Virus record (IMG/VR): IMGVR_UViG_3300030333_006531
Location: 1 to 33,654 of that record
Source of the DNA: a virus
Reading direction: 5' to 3' (one strand)
Length of the DNA stretch: 33,654 nt
The notes under the pieces were generated by a model, which had not been told where the DNA came from, made no database searches, and saw only the letters and a list, made by a program, of their open reading frames with translations. Both the position numbers and the translations under genes were made by a program. Every line of letters begins with the position of its first letter. The stretch's first letter is position 1. Of this stretch, positions 2 to 33,654 are shown in pieces.

Positions 2-34
2 AAAAAAAAGCTCCGCCTAATTAAAGACGGAGCT
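2..34 (-). terminator. Rho-independent terminator, leftward (copy 1)
   Basis: Read leftward, a 10-bp stem (one G-U pair; arms at 9-18 and 25-34) closes a TTAATT loop and is followed by eight T residues. It ends the transcript of the 52-429 gene. Rightward transcripts would form the hairpin without a U tract, so it is a weaker stop for the convergent nuclease gene. Confidence 0.85.
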
Positions 35-429: not shown

Positions 430-490
430 TTGATTATTTAAGATTTTTAGTTTTTTGAGAAGCGTCGAGTGACGCTATCGAGTAGGACAC

Positions 491-518
491 ATTCTACACT
501 TTCACGGTAAGCGTGCAA
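491..518 (-). promoter_or_regulatory. Leftward promoter of the end gene (copy 1)
   Basis: Read leftward: -35 TTGCAC (513-518), a 16-bp spacer and -10 TAGAAT (491-496). The spacer is the word GCTTACCGTGAAAG (499-512), repeated almost exactly at 4651-4664 and in degenerate form at 26057-26069. A phage or host factor may read this word. Confidence 0.65.
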
Positions 519-598
519 GCGGGTAAATGATAAATATTTTCGACGCCCTAAAAGCCTGTTAAATCAACGTATTGGAATAATGCCTAGCCTAGCCTGCT

Positions 599-820
599 CT
601 AATTACGCTTATCCATTATCTCCATAATCGTCGCGTCGGACACATCGAGCTTTTTGCCGACCATTCGAATCCACGCCATGCGCTCTCTGTTCCAAGCAGT
701 TCTTTCTCCGTCGAACCTTAAACTTAGTTCTTCAATTTTACTTAACAACCAACGCTCTCTAATAATTGAATAAGCAACCCAAAGACCAAGCACTCCATAG
801 TCAGCAAGAATTTCATTCAT
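599..820 (-). CDS. Small protein with N-terminal hydrophobic helix and coiled coil
   Basis: The product has 73 residues. Residues 5-19 (LADYGVLGLWVAYSI) are hydrophobic and could form a short membrane helix. The rest is charged and helical (RERWLLSKIEELSLRF onward), consistent with a coiled coil. Small membrane-anchored coiled coils of this size are common near phage lysis genes, but nothing here proves a holin or spanin. Its start overlaps the end of the upstream lipoprotein gene by 8 bases, so the two are translated together. It is the last gene of the leftward accessory operon before the end gene. Confidence 0.65.
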   Translation of the reverse strand: MNEILADYGVLGLWVAYSIIRERWLLSKIEELSLRFDGERTAWNRERMAWIRMVGKKLDVSDATIMEIMDKRN

Positions 821-5022: not shown

Positions 5023-5637
5023 TTAATGTTGAAATCCGTCGAACGATATCCATTGAATAAGATAAAAATTGCTTTTGCCCGAAGACGGATTGCTTGCGTG
5101 AAAGTCAAAAGTAAAACCATATCTGTATCCACTAGAGTCGACCAAATGAGTAAAGCCTTCCGTACCATTGAAGTTATATAAATTCTCATTATCACTTAAG
5201 TCAAAGTTAGAAGTTGTTATAGAACCCGAAGTCTCATTGTTTATATACCAAACTCTAGTAAAAACAATCGGGTCAGCTCCCGACGCAAACAGTTGTGTCG
5301 AACCACCGTTCGTTGTGTATTGATAATTTACTGTAGTTGAAAAAGGCGTTGATGTTCCACTAGCGTGTTCGTAAAAAACCCAACCGTGTTCCATTCTGCT
5401 TCGACGCTTTAATACTGTTGCTAAATTTTTATCTGAAGAAGAAAGGCTTGTAAAAAAGTTTGCGCCCATATCGCTCATGTCAAAATGTAATTCATCTTGC
5501 GTTGCAACAATTTTTTCAGCAAGAAAATTTAAAAGCCTTGGCGACAAAGATGTTAACGGTTTATAAGTCGAGCCTGTGTCGGCAACTCTTCTTATAGTAA
5601 AAGCTTTGTCTAAATATTGTGGATAAGGTGAAGCCAT
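5023..5637 (-). CDS. Putative tail-tip or fibre protein
   Basis: The product has 204 residues, rich in Ser, Thr, Gly and Asn with beta-prone segments, as in adhesive tail proteins. A central DPIVFTRVWYIN followed by a C-terminal FYLIQWISFDG is echoed by PPIVFIKPNKPF and YYDFSWLAIQP in the protein at 6338-6955, so the two may share a C-terminal module. The ATG overlaps the upstream stop by one base. Position at the end of the tail genes suggests a role in receptor binding. No enzyme motif is seen. Confidence 0.6.
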   Translation of the reverse strand: MASPYPQYLDKAFTIRRVADTGSTYKPLTSLSPRLLNFLAEKIVATQDELHFDMSDMGANFFTSLSSSDKNLATVLKRRSRMEHGWVFYEHASGTSTPFSTTVNYQYTTNGGSTQLFASGADPIVFTRVWYINNETSGSITTSNFDLSDNENLYNFNGTEGFTHLVDSSGYRYGFTFDFHASNPSSGKSNFYLIQWISFDGFQH

Positions 5638-6332
5638 TAAAACGGTAACTCCATAATTGTTATATAAGTAAATATTTTATCACCTAAAGATTCGTCGAGC
5701 GGAACAAACTCGTCCGCAGTCGACCAATCAGTATCTTCTGCTAAGTAGCAATGAGCCGTAAGCGATGGAATATAAACACCACTAAGCTTTCCTCCCGAAC
5801 CACTAAAGTCATAAGCAAATTGTTGTCTAGTATATGAGCCTCTCATTAAAGGGCTTCCACCGTCGGTTGAATATTCATTCTCATCGACAGTTGTTATAAA
5901 CGTAAATAACGATTCGCTTCCATTGCTACCACTTCTATTTGTTAACGTAAAGTCGGGAGCGTCCGACGGCAAAGCCATAGCGCTTTGTGAGTTTGTGCCT
6001 AGCCACCAATTACCTTTGCTCTGAAAATACATAAGACCCACAGAAGATTGAGAGACATAGGCGTGGTCATTGTGAGCAACCTTAAAAGTATATATCATGC
6101 CACCTATAGAATATATTGCTTCAGCTATGCTCGACGGTGACCAAGAAGTATTTGGAGCAATGCCCGTTAAAGGGTCAACTCCTGCATGCCTGCAAACTTC
6201 CGACGCTCCTGAGTAAAGTTTCGACAACCAATCTGCGGTTACCTTATCCGAAGAAGTTATAGGAGAAAAATCGTCCATCTCTGTAGGATAGCTCGACGTT
6301 TTTTTATTGCTCGTGTCTTTAGATACTGCCAT
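5637..6332 (-). CDS. Putative tail-tip or fibre protein
   Basis: The product has 231 residues from MAVSKDTS, which lies 5 bases after the upstream stop; a start at 6353 would overlap that gene. It is Ser/Gly/Thr rich with many aromatic residues and beta-prone stretches (LMYFQSKGNWWLGTN), typical of virion surface proteins. No collagen repeat, chaperone domain or hydrolase motif is visible. It sits between two similarly sized tail proteins and probably builds the same tip structure. Confidence 0.6.
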   Translation of the reverse strand: MAVSKDTSNKKTSSYPTEMDDFSPITSSDKVTADWLSKLYSGASEVCRHAGVDPLTGIAPNTSWSPSSIAEAIYSIGGMIYTFKVAHNDHAYVSQSSVGLMYFQSKGNWWLGTNSQSAMALPSDAPDFTLTNRSGSNGSESLFTFITTVDENEYSTDGGSPLMRGSYTRQQFAYDFSGSGGKLSGVYIPSLTAHCYLAEDTDWSTADEFVPLDESLGDKIFTYITIMELPF

Positions 6333-6337
6333 GATAT

Positions 6338-6955
6338 TTATACTTCGTCCCAAGAGTCTCTATATTCTGTCGTCAAGTCGATGGCTCCACCTATGGGCTG
6401 TATAGCCAACCAACTAAAGTCGTAATAAATTGTTGTTCCTGAACTGCCTATTTGATTCGACATAGGAATAAAATAATTTCTTGTAGATTTTATAATACTT
6501 ACTTCAGTGATGTAAGAAGCGCTAACGCTTCCCGCAAAAGGCTTGTTTGGTTTAATAAAAACAATAGGCGGTTCAGTAAATAAATCATCGCCCTTGTCTG
6601 TTTGAAAATAAATCTTTAAACCCTTGAAGTAATGTTTCGAATAACGAGTGATGAAATTGGTGGAGCTGCCTAAAACGTTAGGGTGATTATAAGTCCAAGT
6701 GTTGCCGTTGACTGTTACAGAAACGTCGCCACTTGTTGTTGCAGGAAAGTTTCCCGTTTCTTGCCCTGTCGCTATCCTACAGTTTTGTTTTATATATTCC
6801 CCCATAGGAATTGTTTGCGTCGAGTCTCTAGTTCCTGCGGTTGTTTGCAATCCACTTATGTTCGACTCAACAAACTGCAAATCTAATCCCGTTAAAGAAT
6901 CTAACCCGTCGTGAAGTTCGGGAGTTATCGGTGGTAAGTCTGTAGGGTAAGTCAT
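6338..6955 (-). CDS. Putative tail-tip or fibre protein
   Basis: The product has 205 residues. The N-terminus is proline-rich (TYPTDLPPITPELHDGLD), which may dock it to the hub. The C-terminal half has a PPIVFIKPNKPF strand and an aromatic YYDFSWLAIQP strand, the pattern also seen in the protein at 5023-5637. It follows the large hub gene by 10 bases. A structural, receptor-facing role is inferred from composition and position only. Confidence 0.6.
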   Translation of the reverse strand: MTYPTDLPPITPELHDGLDSLTGLDLQFVESNISGLQTTAGTRDSTQTIPMGEYIKQNCRIATGQETGNFPATTSGDVSVTVNGNTWTYNHPNVLGSSTNFITRYSKHYFKGLKIYFQTDKGDDLFTEPPIVFIKPNKPFAGSVSASYITEVSIIKSTRNYFIPMSNQIGSSGTTIYYDFSWLAIQPIGGAIDLTTEYRDSWDEV

Positions 6956-22839: not shown

Positions 22840-23571
22840 TTAATCGTTCGGCGCCATTATCATTTTAGGAAAAGGAGAAGTTTTATTTTTAGAATCATAA
22901 ACTGCAAACGCGACGCGCCAATCGGGTCGAGCGATTCCAATATACTTTGTTGCAGGTGAAGTCCAATCGCCAAGCCATCCACCTTCAACACCGAATAAAG
23001 TTTTACCGCCGACCGTCGCGCAAAGAACTCCAAGTCTATGCGTGTGTCCGCAGTGAACATTCTCGCCTAACTTTCTTGCGCAGTTAAGAGCATGATTGCC
23101 TGCGATGCGACTCGACCCTTTTACTTCGTGACCATGAAGGAATCGAACAGTTTGTCCCGCGCCTGCTTTAGTGCGCACTGCGCCCGACGCTAATTCAATT
23201 CCAAATTGTTCTAAAGCTAAATGACTCGACCAATGCGAATGTTGCAGGTCAGCTAAGTGTGGCGCTCTTTGTTCGACGTAACGATTCCACCTGTCTTCAT
23301 GATTACCTTCAATAAAAATAATCTCAGCGCTATTGCCTGCACTGCGTCGAATGGATTGCAAAAACTTTCGACCTGCACTTACTTCTTCTAATAATCTATC
23401 GCGCCAATCCTTTTGCTTGCGATGATAAGTTAAAGCATGAAAGTCGAGAACATCGCCAAGCATAACAATCTTCTTAGGCTTTTCTTCTTTTATGTATTTA
23501 AGCATTCGACGGACATGCGCCTTATGTTCAAAGGGAACATGCACGTCGGGAACAACAACAGTCTTGACCAT
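22840..23571 (-). CDS. Calcineurin-like metallophosphoesterase
   Basis: The product has 243 residues from MVKTVVVPDVH; an upstream start at 23646 would run through the terminator. The metal-binding motifs are complete: D9-x-H11, G39-D40-x2-D43, G89-N90-H91-E92, H146-G-H148 and G175-H176-T-H178. This gives a two-metal active site for phosphomonoester or phosphodiester hydrolysis (nucleotide, nucleic acid or protein). Substrate is unknown. Phages often carry such enzymes near replication or packaging genes. It lies with the gpZ-like gene, 2 bases apart. A regular GNHE and GHTH set means it should be active. Confidence 0.88.
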   Translation of the reverse strand: MVKTVVVPDVHVPFEHKAHVRRMLKYIKEEKPKKIVMLGDVLDFHALTYHRKQKDWRDRLLEEVSAGRKFLQSIRRSAGNSAEIIFIEGNHEDRWNRYVEQRAPHLADLQHSHWSSHLALEQFGIELASGAVRTKAGAGQTVRFLHGHEVKGSSRIAGNHALNCARKLGENVHCGHTHRLGVLCATVGGKTLFGVEGGWLGDWTSPATKYIGIARPDWRVAFAVYDSKNKTSPFPKMIMAPND

Positions 23572-23592
23572 AGTTTGCAAGATAACAAAAGA

Positions 23593-23619
23593 AAGCCCCC
23601 GCGTCGAGCGCGAGGACTT
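23593..23619 (-). terminator. Rho-independent terminator after the 299-residue gene
   Basis: Read leftward, an 11-bp stem with two G-U pairs (arms 23593-23603 and 23609-23619) closes a CTCGA loop and is followed by TCTTTTGTT. It ends the message of the 23662-24561 gene and separates it from the phosphoesterase/gpZ unit. Confidence 0.8.
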
Positions 23620-23661
23620 CCAATCATTAAAACTAAAAATCAACAAATAAATGATACTACT

Positions 23662-24561
23662 TCACTTACTGTCGAGTTCTTCACAAACTCGATTGATTTC
23701 TGCTATCGCATCTTCCATAGACAAGCATTGCTTTATAACGAATGAGTCTTCAGAAAATGGATTACCTTTTACAGAGTTAACCGCGACCTTAGTAAAGTCG
23801 TCAGTGCATCCCATACCTCTATCGATAGCAGTGTTAGCAGTCATCTTTGCGGCAAAGCCTAGTGTTCTAAATACGCCTGCTTCACAAAGTGCGCCTGCGA
23901 CAATATCAGTTCTTAATGGTTCGTCGAGTTCTTTAACCGCAACACTTGTCGCTGAGTAAACTCCGCCGTCTTGTTGTGAAGTATTACAACCAACAATCTC
24001 GACTCTATAACCTGCATTTTCTAAAACGTCAGATAAGATTATCGCTACTGCGCCCGACCAAAATAAATCGTCAGCTTCGACGTAAGCCAAGCCACCCCAA
24101 TTAACAATCAAACTACAGTGTGGAGTTTGACCTTTACCTTCGCGCTTAGTCGTGCGATACATTGTGTCTAACTCGCCACCCATTAACTTGTCGTAATCTA
24201 ACTCGTCGCCGTCGTCAGACCATACTTGCTTGCGACGAACATCTTTTGGTTCGGGCAAAGTGCACTTGGCATAAATATCAGATACAAAGCTTAGTGCTTT
24301 ATCAGCACCTTCGCGCCATCCTTCAGTTACATACTTTCTTGCGTCGTCGATTGTTTTACCTTGAAGCGTTCCATACCAAGAGTCGAACTTGCGGTTAGCT
24401 AGTCTTCTTTCCCAATAGTATCTTGCAGTAGCTTTGTTTTCTGCAGTCACGTCAGCGCGACTAATGTTTCCTAATTGTGAAAGAGTTAAGTGAGTACCCG
24501 CAACGCGTTTACCCGTTGAAGACTTACCTTCGTAAGTTACAGTTTTGTTTTTAGTAGTCAT
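23662..24561 (-). CDS. Unknown 299-residue protein, possible degenerate VWA partner of the AAA+ ATPase
   Basis: I do not recognise a definite family. The first 100 residues are basic and helical (KATARYYWERRLANRKFD). The centre (HCSLIVNWGGLAY then LFWSGAVAIILSDVLENAGYRVEIVGCN) has the strand-helix-strand pattern of von Willebrand A domains, but the DxSxS metal motif is replaced by NWGGLA. MoxR/CobS-type AAA+ ATPases commonly pair with VWA proteins, and one lies immediately upstream, so a functional pair is plausible. It has its own promoter (24632-24658) and terminator, so dosage can differ from the ATPase. It could instead be an unrelated Rossmann-like protein. Confidence 0.55.
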   Translation of the reverse strand: MTTKNKTVTYEGKSSTGKRVAGTHLTLSQLGNISRADVTAENKATARYYWERRLANRKFDSWYGTLQGKTIDDARKYVTEGWREGADKALSFVSDIYAKCTLPEPKDVRRKQVWSDDGDELDYDKLMGGELDTMYRTTKREGKGQTPHCSLIVNWGGLAYVEADDLFWSGAVAIILSDVLENAGYRVEIVGCNTSQQDGGVYSATSVAVKELDEPLRTDIVAGALCEAGVFRTLGFAAKMTANTAIDRGMGCTDDFTKVAVNSVKGNPFSEDSFVIKQCLSMEDAIAEINRVCEELDSK

Positions 24562-24759: not shown

Positions 24760-25971
24760 CTAGCGATTAGGAACCCCACACTTTGCTTTCTCGTCAGCTG
24801 TCCAATCCAAGGTCAATTGGTCGACACACTCCTCGACAGTCCAACCTGCGTTGTCCATCAAAGTCTTAGCGTTCAACATTGCTCTCATCGATACTACTCG
24901 ACGGACGCGAGCGCTGTTAGCTTTCTTGCGGATGCTTTGGAAAGCGCGACGCAATTCAGTATTAGGAACCAACTTGCGCTCCAAGCTTGGGTCGTAGTCA
25001 ACAACAACGCTTCCCATGCAAACTCGGTCAAGAGTAGCCGCGTCCATTTGGTTACGTCCGACGTATTGACGGTCAGCACCTGTTCCGAAAGTGTTAGCAG
25101 AGAATACCAATACGAAGTCGGGGTGAGCTTCGATGCTTGGCTCGTTAGGATTGTTTGGAAGTACCAAGCGACGGTTAGCAGATAGTTGGTTAAGAACCAA
25201 AGCAACGTTAGGGTCAGCCGCGTCGAACTCGTCAGCCAAGAAGATTCCGCCTTCCTTAACCATTCTTACTAATTCAGTAGGAACATATTCGAACTTGCCA
25301 CCTTCGCCGATTGGAAGAAGACGACCTGTTAATTGTGATTCGCTCATGCCACCTGTACAAGAGATAGTTGCGAATGGGCGACCAAGATATTCAGCGACTT
25401 GTTGTGCGATGAAAGTCTTGCCTGTACCTGCGTCGCCAACAAGCATTGTTGGAAGTTGACACTTGATACGGTTTACCAAGTCAGAGAAGATTGGGTGAGC
25501 GTGACCACTTAGTGGAGCGTGACGTTCGCCACGGTCATTCGACTTGCGGAATTCAGTTGCTGAAGTTTCAACGTGAGACTTCTTGCTTTTAGTTTTCATA
25601 ACTCTTTCGTCTTTCCAAGAAAAGTCAAGACGTGAGTCGCGAGTGTTTGGACAAGTGTTACATTCGATAACGTTGCCACCTAAAGTTGACTCAACGAATT
25701 TACCGTTGCGATGTTGACCTCTACAACGTGGGCAGTCGTCACCAACTGTAAGCTTGTTCATAAACTTGCCATAGTCGTCATCAGCAAAACGTTTTGCAGT
25801 TGCGCCACCGTAATAACTTTTAACGTTGACTTCCATGTTGTCAGTTGAGTTATAAGTTCCGTGCATTTTAGATGCACACTTCATCGCTTGAAAAGAATTG
25901 TTATGTGGCGTTGAGCAACATGCAGTTTTTTCTTGAGTTGATTTGTTAGTAAGGATTGCGAAGAATTTCAT
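24760..25971 (-). CDS. Zinc-ribbon AAA+ ATPase (MoxR/CobS type)
   Basis: The product has 403 residues. Residues 78-110 form a zinc ribbon (C80-x2-C83 and C104-x2-C107). From about 155 comes an AAA+ module: Walker A GDAGTGKT (179-186), the GMSESQLTGR loop typical of MoxR/dynein-like ATPases, Walker B IFLADEFD (243-250), sensor 1 SAN near 291-293 and an arginine-finger-like DRV at 315-317. Such ATPases remodel protein partners, often VWA-domain proteins; CobS-like copies occur in several marine phages, with unclear role. The word GTCG/CGAC is about half as dense here as in the tail genes. It begins after a long A-rich leader without Shine-Dalgarno. Confidence 0.85.
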   Translation of the reverse strand: MKFFAILTNKSTQEKTACCSTPHNNSFQAMKCASKMHGTYNSTDNMEVNVKSYYGGATAKRFADDDYGKFMNKLTVGDDCPRCRGQHRNGKFVESTLGGNVIECNTCPNTRDSRLDFSWKDERVMKTKSKKSHVETSATEFRKSNDRGERHAPLSGHAHPIFSDLVNRIKCQLPTMLVGDAGTGKTFIAQQVAEYLGRPFATISCTGGMSESQLTGRLLPIGEGGKFEYVPTELVRMVKEGGIFLADEFDAADPNVALVLNQLSANRRLVLPNNPNEPSIEAHPDFVLVFSANTFGTGADRQYVGRNQMDAATLDRVCMGSVVVDYDPSLERKLVPNTELRRAFQSIRKKANSARVRRVVSMRAMLNAKTLMDNAGWTVEECVDQLTLDWTADEKAKCGVPNR

Positions 25972-27033: not shown

Positions 27034-27037
27034 TGAA

Positions 27038-27069
27038 TGACAAAAGTTTGACGAAAGTGTGACAAAAGT
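27038..27069 (+). repeat. Three 11-bp-spaced iterons
   Basis: TGACAAAAGT, TGACGAAAGT and TGACAAAAGT begin at 27038, 27049 and 27060. The 11-bp period puts them on one face of the helix. They begin 5 bases before the RusA start codon. Confidence 0.75.
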
Positions 27070-27160
27070 TCTCGTTCGTTATTTCGTTCGTTTAAGTACG
27101 TTTAATAGTGATAATATTATATGAATATATATTTCTTATTACTACTTCTGTCAGAGAATC

Positions 27161-27215
27161 AGAGACACACACCTGCTTGCTTTCTTTGGGCGCGAAGGGT
27201 GTGTCTCTTTTTCTT
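27161..27215 (+). terminator. Long hairpin with rightward T tract
   Basis: AGAGACACACACCT (27161-27174) pairs with AGGGTGTGTCTCT (27196-27208), one base bulged, and is followed by TTTTTCTT. It reads as a rightward terminator although no rightward gene precedes it. A small untranslated RNA or origin structure may be involved. Confidence 0.6.
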
Positions 27216-27263
27216 GACGAAAGTCGATTGATTTTTTGATAATCGCTTGCCAACAATGCTTTT

Positions 27264-27307
27264 ACTTTCGTCGAGCTTTCGTCATTCGTTTTGTCTTTCG
27301 TCATTCG
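27264..27307 (-). repeat. Inverted iterons and 13-bp direct repeat
   Basis: ACTTTCGTCG, GCTTTCGTCA and TCTTTCGTCA at 27264, 27275 and 27294 are the reverse of the iterons at 27038-27069. CTTTCGTCATTCG occurs twice (27276 and 27295), 19 bp apart. The last copy covers the stop codon of the primase gene. Confidence 0.7.
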
Positions 27308-29538
27308 GCTAATGCAACGTATGCAATTCGCGGTCGACCCGCAGTTTTTATTTGAACTCGCTCGACCTGCTCGGCGTCGCTGAGGGCGGTCAATGCTTCG
27401 AGCCGTTCTTTGGGCGTCAGTTTTGCGAACGCTCCATGGCGCCCCATCTCTCGCTCTGTCATGCCACGCTCTCCCGCGTTGGCGATTGCCCGCAAGCATT
27501 CCTTGGTTCGAGATTCGAACGGGCTGTCAGCGACGCGAGCGTTGACTTGATGGACTAGGCATTCGATGCTCCAATCGACGAAGGCTATTGCGAATTCAGC
27601 ATGGCGTTTTTCAACGACAGGCTCGACGGGATTTTCTGCCACTGCTAAAACCAAGGCGACTTTGTCGGCATGCTCCCAAGCTCGATTGTAAAGTGAGTCG
27701 AGTCCCGTGCCTGAAGTTTCCCGAATAGCGATATCAATCTTGTCATCGTATTCGTCGAACATTCTCGAAGCCTCTTGTGTTTTTACAACCATCAATGGCG
27801 TCGCAGGATTGACGCCGAGAAGATTACCACTGCCACTGCCTGAAGGATTCGACGCGATATGACACCACTCGATAATCGGATGAGGAATTTCCCTGTTGAC
27901 TTTCTTCCGATTCCTAGGCGGTCGGTCAACGTCAGTCTCGACAACCAACAGTCGATTCAGATATCCCGACAAGACATGCTTGGATTCTAGTGCGTCATAA
28001 AATGTTTCGCCTGTCGATGTCGCGTGAACATTGATGCAAGGATATTCGATTGTGACTCGCGGTCGCTTGTGATTATTTGCGTACTCAGTGCCGACATAAA
28101 TATCTCCTGCCGACGAAAATAATTTCATAAGTATCGAAAGAATCGACGCCAAGTGAGAACCTGCATTTGGATTTTGAACAGACTTCATGAACAATCCAAA
28201 CTCGTCGAGCTGAAATAAAACGTTCGGAGTTTCCGAAGCGCGTGATAATATCGATTGCCCCGACGCCAATTCTTCTCCGCCTAAATTATCTTTTAAATCT
28301 GCATGACTAAGAATTTTTTTAATGCAAGAGCGAGCATGATTCTTTCCGCACCCCGTCGCGCCAATTGAAACAAGATATAAGTTCGAACGCAATCCCGATT
28401 CTGTTTCATACTTTCGACCCATAACATTCGCGACTAATGACAACGCACCAACCAAAGAGAACAAAGGCTGAGGACGAACTGCAGTTCTAGTTATATAGTC
28501 AGCAACATCTGCGACAATACCAAGCGGTCGATTAAGAACGTCGGGCATTTTTGGAATTGATGTTTCCGCTAATTTTAAAACTTTACCTTTTGGATTTTTT
28601 GATATTGGAGTTTTATCTTTCATAGCGTCGAGTTCAATCGAAGCTTCGGGAGCCTTCCAACCAAGAGACTGCGCCAATCCAAAAAGAGTTGCGATAGTGA
28701 TGCCACCTGCGCCGAACGAAAACGAAGACCAAACTCTGCTTGCGTCTTCATAATTATATTTGTCAGAAGTCTTTGACCACTCGTCCCAAATTTCAAAAGC
28801 TTGTTCGCCTGCCATCGTCGAATGAATTGCCATACCAATATTCAACCACGTTTCTCTGTCGTCGGAATTTATTACTGCAAGCGCCGAACGAATCTCGTCG
28901 ACTTTTGTTTTGGACAACAACACTGAATTATCACCAACGTCGACGCCAAGAATTTTTGCAAAAGAAGAATTGGTTCCTTTTAAAATTTTAACAACCCAAG
29001 ATGGAGCGTCGACTGCTTCCATACTTTCGTCAGTCCATTCATAACTTTGTCCTGAAAGATGAATGCTTGGAGCGACAACAACATAACCGCCTGTAGATTT
29101 TACGTCGACGCCTGTTCCAAGTTTTCCATTACGAATGCCGTCCGACTTATTGAACTTAAAAAAATAATGTTCACCACCGCCACCTGTTTTTGCATGAAGA
29201 GTTTCGGGAAGTAAATCATTTTCAATTTCTAAATCGTTAAGAGTAATGTCGCCTCCGTTTCTTGGGTCAATATCTAGCGCCCAAATTCCCGACGCTTCTC
29301 CCAATGCAATTCCGATATTTGCTTTTGGATATTTCGACCACCAAGAACGAATCATTGCAGAGTTAGTCGAAGCGTCCTTAACTCCATTAACTGTTCTCGG
29401 ATGTTTTCCAATTGAATTGCAATTGCTAGAGCCACAAGAACATTTACCAAGATGCACTGAATGCAATGGTAAAACTGCGAATCCTTTTTCGGCATAACTT
29501 AAAGCAGAGTCGAGCAGTAGTTGTTCGTAATTTTTCAC
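27301..29538 (-). CDS. Primase-polymerase/helicase fusion
   Basis: The product has 745 residues with a GTG start that overlaps the upstream stop (GTGA). Residues 1-185 are an archaeo-eukaryotic-type primase-polymerase: a CSCGSSNCN..GKHPR Cys/His motif (33-47), the metal site DID (89-91), GGGEHYFF (His124) and DVKSTGGYVVVAPS. Residues 210-275 resemble the primase C-terminal helical domain (DDRETWLNIGMAIHS). Residues 340-600 are a DUF3987-like ATPase with GATGCGKN (393-400) and LDEFG (444-448). The Walker A ends in Asn rather than Ser/Thr. The last 80 residues form a winged helix. It would prime and unwind at the adjacent origin. Confidence 0.88.
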   Translation of the reverse strand: MKNYEQLLLDSALSYAEKGFAVLPLHSVHLGKCSCGSSNCNSIGKHPRTVNGVKDASTNSAMIRSWWSKYPKANIGIALGEASGIWALDIDPRNGGDITLNDLEIENDLLPETLHAKTGGGGEHYFFKFNKSDGIRNGKLGTGVDVKSTGGYVVVAPSIHLSGQSYEWTDESMEAVDAPSWVVKILKGTNSSFAKILGVDVGDNSVLLSKTKVDEIRSALAVINSDDRETWLNIGMAIHSTMAGEQAFEIWDEWSKTSDKYNYEDASRVWSSFSFGAGGITIATLFGLAQSLGWKAPEASIELDAMKDKTPISKNPKGKVLKLAETSIPKMPDVLNRPLGIVADVADYITRTAVRPQPLFSLVGALSLVANVMGRKYETESGLRSNLYLVSIGATGCGKNHARSCIKKILSHADLKDNLGGEELASGQSILSRASETPNVLFQLDEFGLFMKSVQNPNAGSHLASILSILMKLFSSAGDIYVGTEYANNHKRPRVTIEYPCINVHATSTGETFYDALESKHVLSGYLNRLLVVETDVDRPPRNRKKVNREIPHPIIEWCHIASNPSGSGSGNLLGVNPATPLMVVKTQEASRMFDEYDDKIDIAIRETSGTGLDSLYNRAWEHADKVALVLAVAENPVEPVVEKRHAEFAIAFVDWSIECLVHQVNARVADSPFESRTKECLRAIANAGERGMTEREMGRHGAFAKLTPKERLEALTALSDAEQVERVQIKTAGRPRIAYVALAE

Positions 29539-31994: not shown

Positions 31995-33083
31995 ATGGCA
32001 AAACTACCAAACAAAAAAACTACCGTCGAACTTATTGACGAAATATTAGAAAAAGAAAACGACTCAAAACTTGAACCATATCGCGGACATCTTGGCGCGT
32101 CAGTAATTGGAAGAGAATGCGAGCGCGAACTTTGGTATTCATTCAGAGGCGTCGAACGAGTGCATCACGAAGGAAGGATTTTGAGATTGTTCGATAGAGG
32201 AAATCGAGAAGAGGAAAGTCTTGTCGAATACTTAAGGAAAGCAGGCGTTGTTGTCCACGACGTCGACAGTAAAGGCGCTCAGTTCACGTTCTCTAAAATC
32301 GGCGGTCACTTTGGGGGAAGCATGGATGGCGCAGGGAAAGGCTTCGCTGAGGCTCCTGCAACATGGCACGTTGTAGAGTTTAAAACTAGCGGTTCAAAAG
32401 CGTTTAAATCTTTAGTAAAGAATGGCGTAAAAAAATCAAAGCCTGAGCATTATATTCAGATGCAACTCTACATGAAATTTTCGGGAATGCGTCGAGCGTT
32501 TTACTTAGCAGTCAACAAAGACAACGACGAACTTTATAGCGAAAGAATTAAATATGATTCGAGTGTTGCAAAAGAAAATTTAGAAAAGGCTCGACGAATT
32601 ATTACGTCGCAAAATCCTCCCGCAAAAATAAGCGAAGACCCAAGTTGGTATCAATGCAAATTCTGCGACTATCCTGAAACTTGCCATCGTAAAAAAATGC
32701 CAACGCTAAGTTGCAGAACCTGTCTTCATGCGACGCCCGAAGTTGACGGCGAGAACGGTCGTTGGTCGTGCGCATATCGAGACATAAAAAACATCCCGAA
32801 AGAATTGCAGGCAAAGGGATGTTACGACCATCGATATATTCCGAAGCTGATTACGTTCGCCGAAGTCGTCGATGCGTCTAGTGAAAAAAATTATGTTGAG
32901 TATGAACTGCCCGACGGTAGACGTTTTCGAAACGGTTATATCGCAGACGGCGGTGGCTTTGAATCTTCTGCAATTCAAGGTGGCGAACTTTCAAAATGGA
33001 TTGACTCTTCTGTAGAAGAACGAGCGTCGAACGACTTGGTCAAAAATTTAGAAACTAATTTTGACGGAACGCTCGACGTATAA
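31995..33083 (+). CDS. Cas4-like PD-(D/E)XK nuclease with probable iron-sulfur cluster
   Basis: The product has 362 residues. The nuclease core has GSMD (Asp111), EFK (128-130) and HYIQMQLYM (Gln155/157), the PD-(D/E)XK set. An early Cys42 (GRECERELWY) plus C221, C224 and C230 match the Cas4/AddB-type 4Fe-4S cluster. A further Cys group (C240, C243, C259, C276) lies beyond and may form a second metal site. It is likely the 5'-3' exonuclease that resects ends for Sak4. The stop overlaps the A tract of the terminator at 33081. The last 90 residues are a separate small domain of unknown role. Confidence 0.88.
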   Translation: MAKLPNKKTTVELIDEILEKENDSKLEPYRGHLGASVIGRECERELWYSFRGVERVHHEGRILRLFDRGNREEESLVEYLRKAGVVVHDVDSKGAQFTFSKIGGHFGGSMDGAGKGFAEAPATWHVVEFKTSGSKAFKSLVKNGVKKSKPEHYIQMQLYMKFSGMRRAFYLAVNKDNDELYSERIKYDSSVAKENLEKARRIITSQNPPAKISEDPSWYQCKFCDYPETCHRKKMPTLSCRTCLHATPEVDGENGRWSCAYRDIKNIPKELQAKGCYDHRYIPKLITFAEVVDASSEKNYVEYELPDGRRFRNGYIADGGGFESSAIQGGELSKWIDSSVEERASNDLVKNLETNFDGTLDV

Positions 33084-33114
33084 AAAAAAGCTCCGCCTAA
33101 TTAAAGACGGAGCT
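33082..33114 (-). terminator. Rho-independent terminator at the junction (copy 2)
   Basis: The hairpin (arms 33089-33098 and 33105-33114) with eight leftward T residues is identical to copy 1. It separates the convergent nuclease and end genes. Confidence 0.85.
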
Positions 33115-33131
33115 ATCGGCTTGGTTAAAGT

Positions 33132-33509
33132 TTAGTATTCAAAAATTGAATGTAAATCTCCAAAAGTTTCTTTGAGATATTGAATTCCTTCTTGCGTCCA
33201 AGATACTTGAACGATAGCGTCTAGTGGACATCCTTCGTTAAGAACAGCTATGTCGAAAAATACTTTGCCTACTAGCGAACTCATTACGCCCGACCATTGT
33301 CTGCCTGTTCCTGAAAACCATTCGGGCTTTGTGATAACGTGTTGGTCATAACCTCTGCTGTTAAAACCTTTAGTTGGCTTTGCCCAAAAGCTTGTCCAAA
33401 CACAGTCTTTGCCGTCGGACATTAGTTCTGCAGAACCCCAACGACCACCTTCATTTTTTACAATGTCATTTAAAGTTTCTTGTTCTAGTTTAGTAAGAGT
33501 TAGTTTCAT
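33132..33509 (-). CDS. Unknown 125-residue protein, possible winged helix (copy 2)
   Basis: This is the second copy of the 52-429 gene, with no indel. Thirteen residues differ: L23R, A26S, H31S, Q36C, W49F, I85F, E86D, A87I, V88A, S105T, L123F, D124E and C125Y. Several codons change at two or three bases at once. The frame is intact, the length equal and the leader the same, so both forms should be functional. It is convergent with the nuclease gene and separated from it by the terminator. No function is assigned. Confidence 0.8.
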   Translation of the reverse strand: MKLTLTKLEQETLNDIVKNEGGRWGSAELMSDGKDCVWTSFWAKPTKGFNSRGYDQHVITKPEWFSGTGRQWSGVMSSLVGKVFFDIAVLNEGCPLDAIVQVSWTQEGIQYLKETFGDLHSIFEY

Positions 33510-33570
33510 TTGATTATTTAAGATTTTTAGTTTTTTGAGAAGCGTCGAGTGACGCTATCGAGTAGGACAC

Positions 33571-33598
33571 ATTCTACACTTTCACGGTAAGCATGCAA
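33571..33598 (-). promoter_or_regulatory. Leftward promoter of the end gene (copy 2)
   Basis: Same layout as at 491-518: -10 TAGAAT (33571-33576) and the intact GCTTACCGTGAAAG word (33579-33592), but the -35 is TTGCAT instead of TTGCAC. Confidence 0.6.
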
Positions 33599-33654
33599 GC
33601 GGGAAAATGATAAATATTTTCGACGCCCTAAAAGCCTGTTAAATCAACGTATTA

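Follow-up and report, generated by a model that had tools for sequence, protein, structure and literature searches.

What places two diverged copies of one block at the two ends of a viral sequence, and do the differences between them reflect selection on the gene that the block contains? The DNA analysed here, a stretch of 33,654 nucleotides referred to as the window, begins and ends with such copies. Positions 1–574 (copy A) and 33081–33654 (copy B) align from end to end without gaps over 574 bp, with 25 substitutions and no indels, corresponding to an identity of 95.6% (4.4% divergence). Direct alignment reproduced the original prediction in this respect: 22 of the 25 differences lie inside a 378-bp minus-strand gene (52–429 in copy A and 33132–33509 in copy B), and the flanking non-coding DNA upstream of the gene, for which about three differences had been claimed, holds the remaining three (positions 513, 524 and 574). 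The gene is more densely altered than the non-coding DNA (22/378 versus 3/196, P = 0.017), a modest contrast that is similar when the ends fixed by the assembly are removed (22/378 versus 2/144, P = 0.03). Neither the identity of the first 55 bases nor the difference at the last base is independent evidence, since both follow from the position at which the contig was cut. Random sequencing error is unlikely to account for the differences, because they include no indel and no stop codon and both reading frames are full length.

By its gene content, the window resembles a complete tailed phage. The minus strand encodes the small and large terminase subunits, the portal, a head–tail joining protein, a capsid protein with a protease, the tail terminator, the tape measure, Dit and tail proteins, with a RusA-like resolvase and a Prim-Pol primase at its far end, and the plus strand encodes Sak4, a single-strand binding protein and a Cas4-domain exonuclease. 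The gene for the large terminase, which is of the GpA kind (phrog_15, E = 9e-245), lies mid-window, with that for the small subunit at 21.4–21.9 kb; real packaged ends would therefore be expected there, rather than at the ends of the window. A genuine direct terminal repeat of the packaged genome was considered and rejected, given the 4.4% divergence between the copies and a longest exact overlap between the ends of 2 bases.

The variable gene comes last in the late operon on the minus strand and is located just before a hairpin that resembles an intrinsic terminator (positions 9–34, minus strand; ten pairs followed by a T run), an identical copy of which is found at 33089–33114. Its convergent neighbour is the Cas4-domain exonuclease (31995–33083, plus strand; phrog_1990, E = 4.7e-102), and the repeat block begins with the three bases of its stop codon; in related phages, the neighbours of this exonuclease are other genes, not the variable gene. 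Upstream, a non-coding gap of 169 nucleotides (430–598, minus strand), which contains weak matches to a promoter-like consensus and may hold a promoter of its own, separates the variable gene from the preceding gene of the late operon (599–820, minus strand), an open frame of 73 amino acids with no family match. No unusual fold was detected in the upstream region, and a search for RNA families and tRNAs found none. The variable gene, a lone gene with a wide upstream gap and a terminator-like hairpin of its own, is possibly, perhaps probably, accessory and moron-like. It shares with phage morons and accessory cassettes the arrangement of a single gene beside a terminator, the wide upstream gap, the orphan sequence and the position between the late operon and the early genes. 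It differs from them in that its G+C content (39–40%, compared with 42% for the genome) is well within the spread, its direction is that of the late operon and the promoter matches are only weak.

The geometry of the two copies offers an answer to the first part of the question. The first difference between them is at base 56, so that copy A starts exactly 55 bases before it, and the last is at base 574, the final base of the contig in copy B. A toy de Bruijn graph was built from two circles identical except for the end block; a k-mer size of 55 produces a fork exactly at base 1, whereas k values of 33, 77, 99 and 127 place the fork at 23, 33059, 33037 and 33009, respectively. The rejoining point at 575 was built into this graph as an assumption; what is observed is a contig whose final base is a difference. 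The value of 55 is the default top k of SPAdes and metaSPAdes, and metaSPAdes often collapses bubbles of this sort; other k-mer sizes or assemblers would also be possible sources of the contig. The k-mer that should rejoin the paths after base 574 is absent from the contig end, and a bubble model thus requires trimming.

Ten other contigs of the collection were examined for comparison. One of them, G012, has an end overlap of 254 bp (L185:1–254 and L186:2247–2500) in which base 127 is the only mismatch, the pattern that a one-SNP bubble would leave where a circle closes at a k of approximately 127; another, G017, has an exact end overlap of 123 bp. A screen that demands exact repeats at the ends would overlook or shorten complete genomes such as G012. 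The present overlap resembles a strain-variant bubble at the closure of a circular viral contig in being gapless and divergent, in beginning k bases ahead of its first variant and in ending on the last, as in G012. Unlike the one-SNP bubble of G012, it comprises 25 variants over 574 bp that mostly alter one protein, and its rejoining k-mer has been trimmed. The loops and bulges that strain variants create in de Bruijn graphs cannot be phased beyond k (PMC11443906), and assemblers collapse or fragment mixtures of strains (PMC8018248).

We conclude, with a probability of roughly 77%, that the window is the linear contig form of a circular genome of approximately 33,080 bp that belongs to a tailed phage, and that its ends are the two arms (A and B) of one unmerged assembly bubble formed by co-existing variants. 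In this explanation we infer the circularity, the k of 55 and the mixture of strains. Extension from the unbranched part of 32.5 kb would follow variant A backwards and variant B forwards, and each extension would halt on meeting the start of the path, yielding the observed contig minus the trimmed rejoining k-mer. The contig ends would then show, in two forms present in the population, the gene that closes the late (minus-strand) operon together with its upstream region. The co-existing variants that had been proposed for the two ends are accordingly the best reading, backed by the fork at base 1 for k = 55, the end of the contig on the last difference and the G012 control, and two co-existing alleles are likely. 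Three identical runs of at least 55 bases lie inside the end block (178–282, 363–422 and 424–512), and blocks of A and B may for this reason be wrongly phased. Elsewhere the assembly resolved the genome, a hint that variability is greater at this locus than at others; the hint is weak, because popped bubbles leave no trace.

Both alleles are intact open frames of 125 amino acids, and their products are 90% identical. Fifteen of the 125 codons differ, with an altered residue in 13 and a silent change in two (L3 and K34). The individual replacements that had been described were all found: Q36C (A versus B) involves three bases, H31S and W49F involve two bases each, and residues 85–88 change from IEAV in allele A to FDIA in allele B. 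The estimate of about 20 protein-changing differences holds in the sense that 20 of the 22 differences in the gene sit in codons with an altered residue; counted along Nei–Gojobori pathways, only 17.7 are replacement changes and 4.3 are silent.

These counts do not support the diversifying selection that the original prediction had proposed. With 295.5 replacement sites and 79.5 silent sites, dN/dS between A and B is 1.10, which is not significantly above 1 (Fisher P = 1) in a comparison of two sequences that has little power, and 18 replacement changes among 22 is the neutral expectation. Given these 18 replacements, dN/dS values of 0.1 and 0.2 are rejected (P = 1e-7 and 2e-4, respectively), 0.3 is unlikely (P = 0.005), 0.5 and 1 fit, and 4 is borderline (P = 0.046), leaving a compatible span from approximately 0.3–0.5 to approximately 4. 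Strong purifying selection on the gene is thereby rejected. In a neutral simulation, two or fewer silent codons occurred in 11% of the runs (P = 0.11). Codons hit more than once number six, compared with 1.2 expected under uniform placement (P = 0.0002); when the local clumps are kept and only the frame is randomised, the excess is not significant (P of approximately 0.1). The changes thus form clusters along the DNA and the gene is weakly constrained, and positive selection is not demonstrated.

If the window ends are the arms of a bubble, the gene may be under weak constraint or its alleles may have been exchanged by recombination. Import of tracts from a diverged homologue, an origin that is compatible with co-existing alleles and that we regard as possible if doubtful, would account for the clumping of the differences, with multi-base changes at residues 85–88, 23–36 and 123–125. 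It is also consistent with the silent and replacement divergence of the gene, both of approximately 6% and nominally above the 1.4% of the adjacent non-coding DNA, although no donor homologue was found in the collections searched. Taken by itself, the silent divergence (approximately 5.5%) is nominally higher than that of the non-coding DNA and the contrast is not significant (P = 0.19); such a contrast would be consistent either with recombination involving a diverged allele or with conservation of a promoter region.

Diversifying selection, which is likewise compatible with two alleles, would make the protein the target or ligand of a fast-changing partner, such as a host receptor, a defence protein or a superinfecting phage. 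The 13 replacements set against two silent codons, the six codons altered at more than one base and the rejection of dN/dS values of 0.1–0.2 argue for it. It is nevertheless unlikely: the ratio of 1.1 does not exceed 1, the silent sites of the gene differ as much as its replacement sites, the neutral simulation equals the low count of silent codons in about one run in nine, and only two sequences are compared, which were noticed because the contig broke there. The stronger proposal, that this orphan late-operon protein belongs to the fastest-diversifying loci of its genome and owes its linked multi-residue allele differences to an arms race with a partner in the host or a rival phage, driven without a retroelement, is quite unlikely. 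Were diversification to be real, studies of host interaction or superinfection would gain a candidate in this orphan phage gene.

The two copies might instead be tandem paralogues within one circle of 33,654 bp, in which a cassette of terminator, gene and upstream region was duplicated head to tail, cut at the duplication junction and allowed to diverge under relaxed selection. The repeated unit is indeed a whole cassette (the terminator at 9–34, the gene and the upstream gap), a graph of the 33,654-bp circle with k = 55 also forks at base 1, and homology stops at 573, one base short of the contig end. Against this stand the need to cut the circle exactly at the junction and to trim the closing overlap, when the exact overlap of the ends is only 2 bases, as well as the presence of Sak4- and Cas4-type recombination genes in the phage and the rarity and instability of near-identical tandem repeats in phages, and we consider the duplication decidedly unlikely.

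That the gene is the variable region of a diversity-generating retroelement can be dismissed within the limits of the window: the codon-level replacement in one small gene at the end of an operon, with multi-base codon changes concentrated there, recalls the target gene of such an element, but the changes are distributed along the whole gene and evenly among codon positions (8/7/7), no RVT_1 reverse transcriptase was found in the record at E values up to 10 while control genomes were positive, and the window holds no further similar copy of the end block that could act as a template repeat, all of which agrees with the claim that no such element is involved.

Among the readings weighed, the assembly bubble between co-existing strains best explains the locus. 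On this reading, a real sequence feature reflects ordinary variation between strains in an orphan phage gene, possibly an accessory one, revealed by the place at which the assembler cut the circle. Divergent contig ends of this kind can be read as captured strain variants, with the break point marking a polymorphic locus. They call for caution when selection is inferred from them, since the assembler picks the site because it is variable, and blocks separated by more than a k-mer may be misphased.

The 125-residue protein has no match above chance in phages and plasmids (tblastn), in viral and genome contigs or in 50 related phage records, and none in Pfam, PHROGs, NCBIfam, PADLOC or the PDB sequences. 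An exact 28-mer from an invariant part of the gene was likewise without a match in the collections searched. Weak similarities to DUF3855/TM0875 (E values of 0.016–0.18; PDB entry 1o22, E = 0.096) were treated as chance. The BFVD entry A0A516KXZ4 has the same length and is 100% identical to allele A over 125 residues, and the protein has therefore already been deposited as viral; the record from which the window derives is probably public too. The collections searched may omit near records, so that the lack of relatives carries limited weight. With a pLDDT of 56, the AlphaFold model is poor; its fold matches were left out and no fold is claimed.

Several other features of the genome were observed. 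Between the head and replication genes, the regions 22840–24561 and 24760–25971 encode a metallophosphoesterase, a DUF7192 protein and an AAA_5 (MoxR-like) ATPase. The ATPase matches phrog_249, which is labelled porphyrin biosynthesis, probably through its resemblance to the AAA domains of chelatases. Three consecutive proteins of 204–238 amino acids, encoded at 5023–6955 after the large tail protein, have no match in PHROGs and are candidates for host recognition by their position. A minus-strand frame of 135 amino acids (27092–27499) shares DNA with the 3′ end of the primase gene, which is read in a different frame, and it spans an inverted repeat (27035–27058 and 27264–27287) with 88% complementarity.
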